A stretch of 64,000 nt of DNA from NCBI RefSeq assembly GCF_900143065.1, contig NZ_FRCX01000007.1:62001-126000 (forward strand). The letters are read 5' to 3'. Shown here one piece after another: positions 15,895 through 20,382 of the stretch. The notes beneath the pieces were generated by a model. The model made no database searches. It saw nothing but the letters and a program-made list of their open reading frames with translations, and was not told the origin of the DNA. This DNA comes from Duganella sacchari (GTDB lineage Bacteria; Pseudomonadota; Gammaproteobacteria; Burkholderiales; Burkholderiaceae_D). The translations under genes and the position numbers were made by a program. Positions within the stretch are counted from its first letter, which is position 1; the number at the start of each line of letters is the position of its first letter.

Positions 15895-17295
15895 TTAAAC
15901 CACGGCGGCACTGAATGACTCCGGCCGCCGCGCAAGCAGGTGAGACAGCCGTTGCAGGCCCGCCTGCAAGCGTCCGCGGTCCCGGATGCTCCCCAGGGAG
16001 ATGCGAATGGCGTTCACGGATACGCCGCCAGTGGCGAATGCCTCCGCCGGCGTGACGGCGATGCCCTCGCTGTCGGCTGCACGTGCAAGCTGCGAGGGCG
16101 TCCAGTACGCCGGCAACTCGAGCCATACATGCAGGCCGTCTCCGGCGCCGCTGTAACGCCCCGCCAGAATATCGCGCGCCATCCGGTGGCGTAGGCGGGC
16201 CTCGTTGCGTACGCCCGCTATCAAGCTGTCAGCTGAACCGTCGAGTATCCACTGCGTAGCCAGGGCGGCCGTCAGCGGCGTGGCCATCAGCGCAAATGAT
16301 CTGAGCGCGGCCAGGAAACGTGCGCGTTCGTGCGGGTCGCGGATCAGCACAAAGGCGACCCGCAAGCCGGGCGTCAGGCATTTCGACAGGGTGGAGATGT
16401 AGTACACCTGTTCCGGCGCCAGCGTGGCAATCGGTGGTGGCGGGGCATCGGCAAGCAGCCAGTAGGGGTCGTCTTCGACGATGCGGACATGGCAGCGCGT
16501 GGCGATGCTGGCGAGCTCCTTGCGCCGGCGTTCCGGCATGGTGATGGCGGTCGGGTTCTGCAACGTCGGATTGAGGAAGACCAGCCCTGGCTTGTGCTGG
16601 CGGCACGCGTGTTCCAGCTTTTCAGGCACCATGCCGTGCTGGTCCGCTTCCACCGCAATGATCTGCCGGCCGAACTGGGCCGCCGCGGCACGCAGGCCGG
16701 GATAACTCATGGGCTCTGCCAGGATCACCCCGCCAGGCTCCGTCAGCGCAAGCATCAGTGCGGCAATCGCCGCTTGCGCACCGGGGCAGACCACAATCTG
16801 CCGGGAGTCCAGCGGTCCAAACATCGGTGCGAGCCATTGGGCGCCCGCCTTGCGGTCGGAGTCGCTGCCCCCGGCCAGGTGGTAAGTCATGAGCAATGCA
16901 TTATCTGTTCTCATCAGGACTTGAGACAAACCTTGTTTCAGAATGTCGTCGAAGTCCACACCGTCCGGCGGTGGTGGGGTATTCATGCTGAGGTCCAGGA
17001 TCGAGGTCAATTCGACTTTTGGCGCCGCGACATACGTGCCCCGGGCGCCGCGGCCTTCCAGCAGGTTGCGGCGTCTGGCTTCGTCGTAGGCGCGCGTAAT
17101 GGTCGTCAGGTCGACGTCCAGCTGGGCCGCCAGCTGGCGCTGCGGCGGCAGGCGGTCACCCGGTTTCAGCGATCCATCGGTCACCGCCGCCTGCAGCGCA
17201 TCCGCAATCTGCAAGAAGCGTGGCCCGCCGTGCGCGGCCAAGCGTGGCGACCAGCGTGGCCAATTTTCATCTTGTATGGTTTTTGACTGGGACAT
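15895..17295 (-). CDS. MocR/PdxR-type GntR regulator with aminotransferase domain
   Basis: A 466-residue fusion of an N-terminal winged helix of the GntR family (ALQAAVTDGSLKPGDRLPPQ, then TTITRAYDEARRRNLLEGR at about 60-80) and a class I aminotransferase-like domain. The PLP lysine is in YISTLSKCLTPGLRVAF and the substrate loop in IVEDDPYW. Such proteins are mostly regulators that sense PLP or an amino compound rather than enzymes. It is convergent with the MOSC gene and divergent from the small membrane gene at 17418; a short palindrome lies in that gap. Its target is unknown. Confidence 0.92.
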   Translation of the reverse strand: MSQSKTIQDENWPRWSPRLAAHGGPRFLQIADALQAAVTDGSLKPGDRLPPQRQLAAQLDVDLTTITRAYDEARRRNLLEGRGARGTYVAAPKVELTSILDLSMNTPPPPDGVDFDDILKQGLSQVLMRTDNALLMTYHLAGGSDSDRKAGAQWLAPMFGPLDSRQIVVCPGAQAAIAALMLALTEPGGVILAEPMSYPGLRAAAAQFGRQIIAVEADQHGMVPEKLEHACRQHKPGLVFLNPTLQNPTAITMPERRRKELASIATRCHVRIVEDDPYWLLADAPPPPIATLAPEQVYYISTLSKCLTPGLRVAFVLIRDPHERARFLAALRSFALMATPLTAALATQWILDGSADSLIAGVRNEARLRHRMARDILAGRYSGAGDGLHVWLELPAYWTPSQLARAADSEGIAVTPAEAFATGGVSVNAIRISLGSIRDRGRLQAGLQRLSHLLARRPESFSAAVV

Positions 17296-17377
17296 TTTGT
17301 CTCAATGTATGGAAATTGCTTTTGGGTAGTATGCCTCAGAGCGTGCGGCAATACCATCCTTGCATGGCAGTGCCGAT

Positions 17378-17391
17378 CACGATAGATCGTG
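17378..17391. promoter_or_regulatory. Palindrome in a divergent promoter region
   Basis: CACGAT-AG-ATCGTG, a perfect 6-base inverted repeat with a 2-base centre, in the 120-base gap between the MocR-type gene and the small membrane gene. It is placed as an operator would be, possibly for the MocR protein itself. No other copy was seen. Confidence 0.35.
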
Positions 17392-17417
17392 TCAAGTAAT
17401 CGCCTGGAATACTCAAA

Positions 17418-17657
17418 ATGATGGATTGGATACCTGTAGTCTTCGTGACGTTCAAGTTTCTCGTGCTTGGCACGGGCATGTTCTTTGCCATCAAATGGCA
17501 TTACGACCAAGGCAAGAAGCAGAAGCTGGAGGAGCGGCGCGCGGTGCTGCGCGCGGGCGGCAAGGTGGTCGCACTCTTCATGCTATCGCTGCTGGGTGTG
17601 GGACTGCTGACCTTCGTCCTGATCCGCATGCTCGGGATGGACTTGTCCATGCCTTGA
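17418..17657 (+). CDS. Small two-helix membrane protein, unknown
   Basis: A 79-residue protein I cannot name. It has a hydrophobic N-terminal helix (WIPVVFVTFKFLVLGTGMFF), a charged stretch HYDQGKKQKLEERRAVLRAG, and a second helix (VALFMLSLLGVGLLTFVLI). By the positive-inside rule the charged loop is cytoplasmic, with both ends outside. Codon use is like the neighbours. It is divergent from the MocR-type gene and about 150 bases before the RING gene. The start at the first of two ATGs is assumed. Confidence 0.65.
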   Translation: MMDWIPVVFVTFKFLVLGTGMFFAIKWHYDQGKKQKLEERRAVLRAGGKVVALFMLSLLGVGLLTFVLIRMLGMDLSMP

Positions 17658-17805
17658 TGGCCAGTAATGCGCGGCGGTTGTGCCGTTTTAATTCTCCCCT
17701 TGCTGATGGGTTGTAAATACATTAGGATCCTTTCCGAGAAGGCTTAGGACGGGCTTCCTTCTACCCTCCGATTCAGTTCGTCCGTTTCCCTTCTCCCCGA
17801 ATTTC

Positions 17806-20382
17806 ATGACGTTCACTGCCGCCCACACGATCTTGTTGCGCAGGCAGGGCTTGCTGTTTGTTGAGGCAGGTACTGCGGCGCTCCCCAGCAATTTCCTTGA
17901 AGCGTTCGAGATCAATCTCGCGAAGCTGGGGTACGCGGTGTCCACGCGTCTGCGTCAACGCCTGCAGACCATTTCCACCGAAGCGCTCACCCTGCTGCAA
18001 GCGCAAGTCTGGAGCGTTCTCGCGGAAAACCTGGGCGGCCATCGCACTCACGTGCCGCTGTACCGCAAGTTTCCGGACGATGTGCCGGCCGATACGTCTG
18101 GCTTGTGGCGACGGCGCGTGCTGTCCCATTTCATGCAGGCGGAAGGTCAGCCCTGCCTGCATTGCGGGCAGACGGGGACCACGCATGTGCTGAATCCCTG
18201 CATGCACGTGGTATGCGACCAGTGTTTTGACGGTAGCAATTACTCGGCATGCCCCATCTGCGAACGGCAGGTCGATCGCCAGTCCGCATTCTTCCGGCGT
18301 GAACCGGCGACAGGCATGTCGACGGAAAACGTCAGACTCAAATTGCTGGACCTGGGCGTATCCGCTGCGCAGGCTGCACGTGCGCTATTCGGCAGTTTTT
18401 GCGAACGCACGCAGGCCATGTCGCCGGTGGATGTGGCGGACCTGTCAGCCATCGTCACCGAATACGGCGCTGAGGTGTTGCCGTGGTTGCCAGCCACCAT
18501 GCCGGTACGCGAGAATATTGCGCATGTTTTCGGCACGCTGCTGCGTCAGTGCGGTCCTGCCGTGGCCATGCCGGCCGCAGCGCCGTATATGAATACCGCG
18601 ACGGATGTCTTGCGTTTGGTTGCCAGCTATTCCGGCGCAGATCCTGGCCTGCTGCCGCAAACCGTGGTGCGTGAATTTACCCTCGCGGAGGCGAGAAAGA
18701 AGAAGCCATATCGGCAGCTGTTTGCGCATAGCTACTACGATAGATACACGTCGCTCAAGCTACCGGTGGAAATCAACCGTTTCAAGATGGCGAAGCTTGG
18801 TCGTCCACTCAGGCGTGCCTTGATGGCGTTCATGGAAAGCCTGCCGGCGGAGTCCATGACGGAGGACATGCTGCGGCATCGTTCGTACTGGATCTGGCTC
18901 GGTGAATTCCTGCATCCGGCCGAATACCGGTTGCGCTTTCCCAAGGTGGCGCTGGCCTTCGAGATCGTGCGGGGCAAGGCGCCGGATGGCAGCCGCGCAC
19001 CGGCATGGCTGACGTATTACGGCAAGCTGGAAGCGGCAATTAATCTCAGTGATGCCGGCAGCATGACGGCTTTGCTGTTGCAGCGGCCGGGTGAACTGGC
19101 GCGGCGGTTTGACCATGCGCTGCGGATTGCCGGTGACGACCAGGCTGCCGTCGAAGCACTGCTGGCAGGCCTGGAACGCTGCGCGCCCCAGTTGTCCACA
19201 CCGGTATTGCTGACGCTGCACGCTTTGTTGCCAACGCGCGGCACGCGGGCCACGTCGCGCGTGTACTGGCCCAAAGGATCTGTCGTCAATGGCGTGTTCG
19301 CTCGGGACACGCGGGCAGTCCTGGCGCCGGCCGCGATTGCGCGCAGCGTGGCGATCGTCGAGCGGGAATTGCTTGCGCGCTTCGCCGGCAAGCCAGGTGT
19401 GGGCGATTTCATTATCGATACCAGGCTGAAAACCATCATGGTTCCGTTCAATGAACGCACTGCCTCGCCGGCAGCAATCCAGCTGCCGCGTGGATCGACC
19501 ATCGGCATCGCGCCCGACAAGACCATACGGCTGTTCCTGCACTGGTGCGAACCGGAGCGGGCGCACTGCAATACCGACCTGGACCTGTCCGTCGGCTTCT
19601 ATGACGCGCAATGGCAGCACGTCGGCACCTGCTCCTATTACCAGCGCGAGCTGCAGGGCGAGTTTGGACGGATCGCCGTCAGCGCCGGTGATTTGACCAG
19701 TGCTCCTTATCCCGATGGCGCTTCGGAATTCATCGACCTCGATTGCCTGGTGGCCGAAAAACATGGCATCCGCTATGCCGTCGCAGTGGTGAACAATTAT
19801 TCCGGCCAGGCTTTCGAAGAGCTGGAACACGCTTTTGTCGGCTTGATGCTGCGCGGCGATACCGGTGGTGACCATTTCGACCCGCGCACGGTTGAAATGA
19901 AATTCAATCTGCAGGGCGGCGATGGCATCTTCATGCCGATGGTGCTGGACCTGGAAAAGAAATCGCTGCATTGGCTCGATGTCTACTCGCGCGGGAACCT
20001 GGAATTCAACAACGTGGCCAGTTCCAATACCGCGATTACCAGTATCTGCCCAACCATGATTGACTACTTTGCCAGCGGCGTCCGGGCGAATATGTTTGAC
20101 CTCGCACTGTTGCACGCTGCGGCCAGGGCGCAGCGCGTGCTGCTGCGCGGGGAGCGCAATATCGTAATCGAGCGCATTGCTGGCGAGTCTGCCAGTCAAT
20201 TCCTGCAACGCTTGCGTGGCGGCGAAGGCGCCGACGTGGCAGCTTTCGATCTTCGCCATGACCAGCAAACCATGGCTGCGCTGCTGGATGGGGATATGGT
20301 GCTGCCACAAGCAACCCTGGCTTACATCCTGAAGCCCGGCGTCATGGCTGGCACCCTGTCCGCAAGCGATTACCTCGCTTGA
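17806..20382 (+). CDS. RING-finger protein with a TerD-like C-terminal region
   Basis: An 858-residue, probably cytoplasmic protein. Residues 117-152 form a canonical C3HC4 RING: C117-x2-C120-x11-C132-x-H134-x2-C137-x2-C140-x8-C149-x2-C152. In eukaryotes this fold makes ubiquitin ligases; in bacteria its role is mostly unknown. The middle (about 190-540) is largely helical with no domain I can assign. From about 561 (LPRGSTIGIAPDKTIRLFLH, then DTDLDLSVGFYD...) the sequence resembles the TerD fold with its acidic calcium-site motif. From memory this matches the MXAN_6230/SCO0854 family of RING proteins. No ter genes or ubiquitin-like genes are adjacent. ATG is chosen at the first in-frame site; the ribosome site is weak. 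Confidence 0.82.
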   Translation: MTFTAAHTILLRRQGLLFVEAGTAALPSNFLEAFEINLAKLGYAVSTRLRQRLQTISTEALTLLQAQVWSVLAENLGGHRTHVPLYRKFPDDVPADTSGLWRRRVLSHFMQAEGQPCLHCGQTGTTHVLNPCMHVVCDQCFDGSNYSACPICERQVDRQSAFFRREPATGMSTENVRLKLLDLGVSAAQAARALFGSFCERTQAMSPVDVADLSAIVTEYGAEVLPWLPATMPVRENIAHVFGTLLRQCGPAVAMPAAAPYMNTATDVLRLVASYSGADPGLLPQTVVREFTLAEARKKKPYRQLFAHSYYDRYTSLKLPVEINRFKMAKLGRPLRRALMAFMESLPAESMTEDMLRHRSYWIWLGEFLHPAEYRLRFPKVALAFEIVRGKAPDGSRAPAWLTYYGKLEAAINLSDAGSMTALLLQRPGELARRFDHALRIAGDDQAAVEALLAGLERCAPQLSTPVLLTLHALLPTRGTRATSRVYWPKGSVVNGVFARDTRAVLAPAAIARSVAIVERELLARFAGKPGVGDFIIDTRLKTIMVPFNERTASPAAIQLPRGSTIGIAPDKTIRLFLHWCEPERAHCNTDLDLSVGFYDAQWQHVGTCSYYQRELQGEFGRIAVSAGDLTSAPYPDGASEFIDLDCLVAEKHGIRYAVAVVNNYSGQAFEELEHAFVGLMLRGDTGGDHFDPRTVEMKFNLQGGDGIFMPMVLDLEKKSLHWLDVYSRGNLEFNNVASSNTAITSICPTMIDYFASGVRANMFDLALLHAAARAQRVLLRGERNIVIERIAGESASQFLQRLRGGEGADVAAFDLRHDQQTMAALLDGDMVLPQATLAYILKPGVMAGTLSASDYLA

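Follow-up and report, generated by a model that had tools for sequence, protein, structure and literature searches.

The RING- and TerD-bearing protein encoded in the window (the whole stretch of 64,000 nucleotides analysed here, from contig NZ_FRCX01000007.1 of Duganella sacchari) and the small RNA encoded upstream of its gene are probably the two parts of a ribonucleoprotein similar to that of Ro60/Rsr with Y RNA, engaged in the maintenance of tRNA or other structured RNAs. The protein is predicted to consist of a Ro60-like helical-repeat ring and a vWA-like domain with a TerD domain inserted in it, and in this lineage a RING finger would have been added before the ring. Comparative genomics suggests that the small RNA is bound by the Ro60-like protein, and the complex may serve quality control or repair of tRNA or structured RNA under stress. 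The RING finger is recognised by sequence, the TerD domain by fold as well as by sequence in relatives, and the Ro60-like part by predicted fold. The features are collected in Table 1.

Table 1. Features of the gene and its upstream region, with positions counted from the first nucleotide of the window.
Feature	Positions	Strand	Basis
Promoter-like TTGCTG-N17-TAGGAT right before the RNA (putative)	17700..17728	+	Read from sequence
Structured small RNA: P0 of 7 bp, P1 of 9 bp, pyrimidine-rich apical loop beginning CUUCCUUCUA	17736..17795	+	Covariation, folding, covariance models
Protein-coding gene, 858 aa	17806..20382	+	ORF call; NCBIfam NF041916 (MXAN_6230/SCO0854 family)
N-terminal helical region, residues 1-105	17806..18120	+	Alignment A2 and model
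C3HC4 RING finger, residues 117-162	18154..18291	+	Pfam, alignments A1 and A2, solved-structure matches
Ro60/TROVE-like helical-repeat region, residues 183-528	18352..19389	+	Fold comparison; sequence profiles silent
vWA-like domain part 1, residues 530-556 (putative)	19393..19473	+	Ro60 alignments end at residue 858; vWA 4fx5
TerD domain, residues 567-747, seems to interrupt the vWA-like part	19504..20046	+	Fold match; Pfam TerD in 7/66 relatives
vWA-like domain part 2, residues 758-858 (putative)	20077..20379	+	Same basis as part 1

The protein family is already catalogued by name, as the 'MXAN_6230/SCO0854 family RING domain-containing protein', since NCBIfam NF041916 matches the protein over its full length (residues 7-855) with 989 bits against a cut-off of 600. 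The original prediction had left the middle of the protein without assignment, which does not hold at the level of the whole protein but remains true of its function: the name of the NF041916 entry gives no function, and neither the Ro60-like core, the RING-less branch nor the RNA partner is indicated there. Similarly, PHROG 33734, a phage entry without function, has hits in the window protein (5.7e-59) and in each of five viral relatives examined. A literature text search found no paper mentioning SCO0854, and from the terms MXAN_6230, RING_SCO0854, phrog_33734 and Prok-RING_4 only the last turned up. The invariant residues of the family alignments fall mostly in the middle and TerD parts of the protein, and the N-terminal helical region is kept in the RING-less relatives.

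Within the window's family, 20 of 392 genomes have the gene at E<=1e-50, and 19 of these pass the NF041916 cut-off; in the phylum-wide set of 398 genomes the genome of the window alone passes it. The phylum scan also gave three strong matches skipping the RING (G154, G237 and G310), and the remaining 28 matches mostly covered the TerD part alone. Matching plasmid records (29) came from Streptomyces, Variovorax, Vibrio, Deinococcus, Mycolicibacterium, Kitasatospora, Embleya, Niallia and Hymenobacter, and 11 phage records matched by tblastn. Among viral contigs a single-sequence query retrieved no relatives; a query with a 23-sequence alignment retrieved 112, of which 80 were kept, and these 80 loci contain many near-duplicates and yield 63 unique ORFs. 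The length of the contigs, up to 500 kb, suggests that many are large phages, and some of the IMG/VR contigs may be plasmids or prophages.

A survey of gene neighbours, as proposed in the original prediction, compared 22 loci and revealed clusters of protein-coding neighbours common to groups of at most 5 loci. It also took in database records of gene neighbourhoods, two of which lack annotation. Since no protein-coding neighbour was common to divergent loci, an operon partner protein was rejected. The gene had been described as standing alone, which is correct for protein-coding neighbours and overlooks the conserved RNA whose 3' end lies 10 nt ahead of the start codon.

The RING finger was predicted correctly. 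Pfam Prok-RING_4 (PF14447) matches residues 117-162 at 9.9e-18 (64.2 bits, cut-off 27), zf-C3HC4_3 matches the protein at 2e-6, and the eight ligands (C117, C120, C132, H134, C137, C140, C149 and C152) form a complete C3HC4 motif with RING spacing. Ligands 132, 134, 137, 140, 149 and 152 are invariant in alignment A1 (8 sequences), where C117 and C120 are not scorable as such because one row (L007) begins at residue 127. The predicted model has a pLDDT of 82-92 in the blocks spanning residues 111-170. A full RING is present in 11 Oxalobacteraceae and three Streptomyces/Kitasatospora rows (L067-L069) of alignment A2. In the rows for Variovorax, Vibrio and Hymenobacter, positions 132/134/149/152 alone remain, the ligands of zinc site 2, with C replacing H134 in Vibrio; the Deinococcus row is down to one CxxC pair, and the RING is missing from five rows. 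Relatives with only these four positions would fit a two-site cross-brace. Among the 63 unique viral-contig relatives one has the full RING pattern, 9 others the half pattern and 53 neither. Judging by these motif patterns, the RING is an optional, detachable module across the family, and the conserved core is the Ro60-like/TerD part. Thus, in terms of Prok-RING_4, the window protein carries a complete C3HC4 and the module is dispensable in the family.

These data bear on the function favoured by the original prediction, a bacterial RING E3-like factor working with a ubiquitin-like system, in which TerD would be the sensor. The completeness of the RING agrees with such a role, as do its best matches among solved sequences, RNF4 (5.1e-4), BIRC7 (1.1e-3) and CBL (4.4e-3). 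The reduction or loss of the RING in many relatives speaks against it, and so does the lack of a common neighbour in the divergent loci. The UQ_con (E2) profile gave no match in 18 gene-bearing genomes, a silence shared by the 14 control genomes. We consider this explanation very improbable. The RING and TerD assignments of the original prediction stand, and its emphasis on ubiquitin is not supported, as the RING is reduced or absent in many relatives and comparative genomics points to a small RNA as the partner. We favour the RING as a zinc-stabilised structural or protein-contact module rather than a ubiquitin ligase; within the ribonucleoprotein it could also add E3-like activity.

The C-terminal region with the DTDLDLS motif, predicted to be TerD-like, proved to be TerD by fold. 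Foldseek matched it to 3ibz, 2kxt and 2qng at 3.5e-5 (3ibz) to 3.9e-4, and structural comparison gave Z 16.8 for 3ibz and 13.9 for 2kxt. The model also scores 16.9 with 9a6r, an entry without TerD in its title. Pfam TerD has no match in the window protein itself and matches 7 of the 66 aligned relatives (alignment A5), at best with 8.4e-6. The fold and the DxDLDxS motif are common to the window protein and TerD proteins of solved structure (3ibz, 2kxt, 2qz7), whereas here TerD lies inside a larger protein of 858 aa. No ter genes adjoining the gene were seen in the window. TerD may constitute a calcium- or metal-responsive part of the protein. Ter systems and prokaryotic RING proteins are reportedly treated in comparative papers by Aravind and colleagues.

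The Ro60-like core emerged from an AlphaFold model based on 66 sequences, the window protein and its relatives (pLDDT 90.5, pTM 0.88), which superseded an earlier model from 8 close sequences (pLDDT 64.5). In the 66-sequence model the part from about residue 183 to 858 is similar to complete Ro60/Rsr (TROVE) structures, with 365-377 residues aligned. The top matches of this type are 9l5y (Z 10.3 over 370 residues) and 9kop ('Trove domain', 10.1 over 376), values around 10 that for a largely helical model fall in the tool's warning range, where a common arrangement alone may score so. They are followed by 2nvo (9.1 over 377 residues), 9nen (8.7 over 377) and, at Z 7.3 to 6.5, by 2i91, 9nf8, 1yvp, 1yvr, 9nep and 9nfa. 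Ro60/Rsr/TROVE entries thus make up 10 of the best 50 structural matches, with alignments reaching residue 858; other helical-repeat proteins mostly align over about 75-105 residues, with four at 139-202, three with an rmsd above 12. Foldseek returned 9l5y with prob 0.99 and E 0.03, and the BFVD search matched a TROVE protein of phage cr111_1 at E 3.1e-4. With the first, weaker model 2nvo and 9l5y (Z 9.6) had ranked directly behind the TerD-type entries, and the vWA structure 4fx5 had aligned over residues 530-858 with Z 5.2.

TROVE was among the folds that the original prediction had listed for comparison, and the predicted model resembles it at the fold level. Homology at the sequence level was rejected: Pfam TROVE (PF05731) finds nothing in the window protein at E<=1, and hhalign, run with the family alignment A5 against 7 TROVE proteins of the canonical type, gives a probability of 0.3%. 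Because sequence profiles miss the likeness, we describe the middle of the protein as Ro60-like by resemblance of the predicted fold and not as a member of the TROVE family. In 14 genomes with the gene or a RING-less relative the TROVE profile gave no match over the cut-off and one weaker match, with the positive control detected. With the Ro60 alignments extending to residue 858 and TerD at residues 567-747 or so, the simplest reading of the model would be a vWA-like domain split by the TerD insertion. The canonical DxSxS motif was not seen in the vWA-like part.

The second component is the small RNA. In the alignment of upstream regions a conserved block persists despite differing upstream neighbours and forms two helices, and in many rows a TTG...TTAnnAT arrangement precedes it. 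The window RNA folds at -24 kcal/mol (z -3.26), a value equalled by none of 200 shuffles; it scores 87 bits with covariance model R1, built from the 20 Oxalobacteraceae copies only, and 56.6 bits with the wider model R2, trained on many viral loci. In the Oxalobacteraceae copies (18 distinct) 99.7% of the cells are paired, and 16 double-change cells compare with a shuffled mean of 4.1 (0/500 shuffles). The same structure was obtained de novo from a MAFFT alignment of 42 divergent RNAs, picked from model matches, with double changes in 12 of 13 pairs. Here 90.3% of the cells are paired and 190 double-change cells stand against a shuffled mean of 59.1 (0/500); the covariation amounts to 0.829, compared with 0.202 after shuffling and at most 0.236 after sliding. 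The proposed partner RNA is a hairpin, some 60-120 nt long, in which two helices covary and the loop opens with a pyrimidine-rich, nearly invariant stretch. A coding origin of the conserved stretch was rejected on the grounds that the distance of the motif to the aligned N-terminus varies (-69 to -158) and that the helices covary. Rfam has no match to window positions 17000-18300 at E<=5 and none at the gathering score in five further loci; the sole row in locus L127, mir-320 at E 7.4, is a chance match. A tRNA-like gene was likewise sought in 12 distant loci, where ARAGORN found none.

The gene and the RNA are tightly linked. In a same-size draw of 392 family genomes, taken with stricter filters, R1 found 19 matches, one per genome, all in the 20 genomes with the gene; in the remaining one (G459) the gene is cut at the contig start. 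Among 12 distant loci a co-oriented R1 match (E 1.5e-8 to 0.24) adjoins the gene in 11. The exception, L073, has no RNA match below E 0.48, and the R1 match there lies inside the gene and was not counted as a partner. Plasmid-borne divergent relatives from Streptomyces, Deinococcus, Vibrio, Variovorax and Niallia have the RNA beside their gene. It precedes the gene in the Streptomyces, Kitasatospora, Deinococcus and RING-less Pseudomonadota loci and follows it in four of the 12, namely Streptomyces NBC_01724 (E 1.5e-8), Vibrio (3.3e-7), Niallia and Variovorax. Besides L114, two of 18 matches in the distant loci are on the other strand (E 1.3 and 2.8). R1 has 93 matches at E<=10 in the 80 viral loci; 90 of them share the strand of the gene, the other three have E 0.34 or more, and 44 loci (near-duplicates included) have co-oriented matches at E<=0.01.

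The wider model R2 gave 184 matches at E<=1 in 93 sources, all co-oriented with the gene. It matches 75 of the 80 viral loci, many of which belong to its training set, and finds nothing at E<=1 in the other five, two of which start at a contig end. When 12 further family loci were searched, 10 matched and 2 did not; L222 among them duplicates the phage of L172, and L223 probably that of L182, hence 8 of 10 without phages already used. R2 had no match in 54 short gene-less control loci, and short sequences flanking canonical TROVE genes, taken from 8 genomes, yielded no match to the RNA either. Counted without recourse to any model, the loop 9-mer CTTCCTTCT has 153 copies on the gene strand and none on the opposite strand within 1 kb of the gene in 81 family loci; it is present in 65 of these loci, and the exact 9-mer is missing in 16. 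Farther out (541 kb) it was found five times on each strand. Conversely, an RNA-first scan of 2.9 million IMG/VR viral contigs with an exact pattern identified 14 stretches, and in 14/14 the protein is encoded on the strand of the RNA; the protein search had already brought up 7 of these 14 contigs. The occurrence of the same protein-RNA pairing in unrelated bacteria and phages suggests an unrecognised Y-RNA-like ribonucleoprotein.

The RNA might instead be a cis-regulatory leader of the gene, riboswitch-like or autoregulatory, and the protein might do an unrelated job. In Oxalobacteraceae the RNA does lie between the promoter-like site and the start codon, and in 11 of 20 loci (three folded) an intrinsic-terminator-like hairpin with a T run separates it from the ORF, as in leaders that attenuate transcription; in L112 the outer helix is followed directly by eight T. 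A leader is difficult to reconcile with an RNA downstream of the gene in 4 of 12 distant loci, with 51 of the 153 flanking loop motifs located downstream, and with up to seven model matches per locus (L163 and L168, with R2). This alternative is therefore judged unlikely. In the window and its nearest relatives no terminator-like hairpin or T run follows the RNA, and the gap to the ATG shows no evident Shine-Dalgarno sequence; abutting the start codon without a terminator, the window RNA could act in cis. Encoded before or after a Ro60-like gene, singly or in several copies, the RNA stands to this gene as Y RNAs do to Rsr, in line with the ribonucleoprotein proposed above.

Repeated structured RNA units beside one protein gene, sometimes with a terminator between, are also what would be expected of an RNA-protein conflict module, of type III toxin-antitoxin or AbiF-type-like character, in which the RNA copies neutralise a toxic protein. 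The patchy distribution with occurrence on plasmids and viral contigs agrees with it as well. Nevertheless, PADLOC gave no match for four family members, the predicted fold is Ro60/TerD-like, and no nuclease is found among the Pfam matches of the window protein and its relatives. A conflict module is thus quite improbable, and the Ro60/Y-RNA-like ribonucleoprotein remains the preferred reading.

The genomic context of several relatives is one of RNA biology. Of the 80 viral loci, all gene-bearing, 60 were scanned for tRNA genes; 34 have them, always in the orientation of the gene, although tRNAs are common in large phages. The gene is located among tRNA genes, with RtcB or tRNA nucleotidyltransferase nearby, in phages Weasels2, RcXuper and RpAliso. 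The Variovorax gene has rtcR at a distance of 1.3 kb, a putative sigma54-type site (TGGCACG-N4-TTGCA) precedes its start by about 56 nt, and the downstream RNA is preceded by TATAAT. We lean, by a little over even chances, towards an unrecognised class of ribonucleoproteins composed of a Ro60-like ring, TerD, an optional RING and their own small RNAs, present in soil bacteria, megaplasmids and large phages. The RNA would gate or target a stress-responsive machine for tRNA or structured-RNA maintenance, and phages would carry the gene by tRNA arrays to keep tRNAs working during infection.

The proposed assignment gives a functionally silent RING/TerD family a testable function, that of a ribonucleoprotein with a named RNA. 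If true, it would extend Ro60/Y-RNA biology to a branch missed by sequence profiles and provide many phage contigs with an identified non-coding RNA. Subscription literature aside, neither the RNA nor the Ro60-like fold of the protein is described in the literature searched, including the accessible parts of PMC7159879, PMC11208441 and PMC8545117, and the main text of two structured-RNA surveys (PMC8040213, PMC2864571) contains no tellur, TerD, TROVE, Ro60 or Y RNA. Ro60-like proteins of phages were noted earlier in passages of PMC7824862 and PMC7765460. In Listeria phage CKA15 abundant unannotated RNAs were observed near an Rsr-like protein, and the authors suggest Y RNAs in a passage of that report (PMC12282133). 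Neither the branch with TerD nor the RING nor the present RNA is described in the accessible parts of these three papers. The Rsr-like protein of CKA15, given there as 56.8 kDa, is not supported as a family member, as no Listeria phage is among the 11 phage records matched by the window family.

Of the known systems, Ro60/Rsr with its Y RNA (TROVE, PF05731; rsr-yrlBA-rtcBA) is the one to which the present pair is compared. Passages of PMC7790460 describe the Y RNAs of Salmonella rsr-yrlBA-rtcBA as operon neighbours and RtcR as controlling expression. Unlike Ro60/Rsr, the window family has no sequence-level TROVE match, contains the inserted TerD and in some members a RING, and its RNA, unlike Y RNA, lacks an Rfam match and did not turn up in the short stretches flanking those canonical TROVE genes that were tested. 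The two systems are alike in the predicted fold of the ring and vWA-like part, in the small structured RNA beside the gene and, in some relatives of the window protein, in the RtcR, RtcB or tRNA context. Ro52 is a RING protein, and the window protein, if the assignment is true, would be a natural RING-Ro60 fusion comparable to human Ro60 with Ro52. The two human proteins are discussed as complex partners, and Ro52 is linked to proteolysis, in passages of PMC11231564.

In the window, the covarying RNA hairpin is separated from the ATG of the RING-Ro60-TerD gene by a 10-nt spacer, in which no Shine-Dalgarno sequence is evident. The small ORF ahead of the hairpin has a composition resembling that of a membrane protein, as judged by eye.

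Features flanking the RNA in the window
Feature	Position	Location	Basis
Small ORF	17419-17658	just before the RNA hairpin	read by eye from sequence
Spacer	17796-17805	between the RNA and the ATG	

The RING-Ro60-TerD gene is present as a tandem duplicate in genome G584 (L101/L006), with one RNA match in all, located ahead of the first gene copy. At L092 (genome G624), the gene appears decayed, its pieces matching residues 45-187 and 708-858, each in a separate frame, and an intact RNA is kept upstream of them.

Genes for a MoxR/AAA-type ATPase and a VWA protein lie close to the Deinococcus member (L072) and to one Streptomyces member (L068). At L116 1-3742, on an IMG/VR contig of 112 kb, a RING-bearing relative adjoins a tRNA gene array with 23 predicted members.
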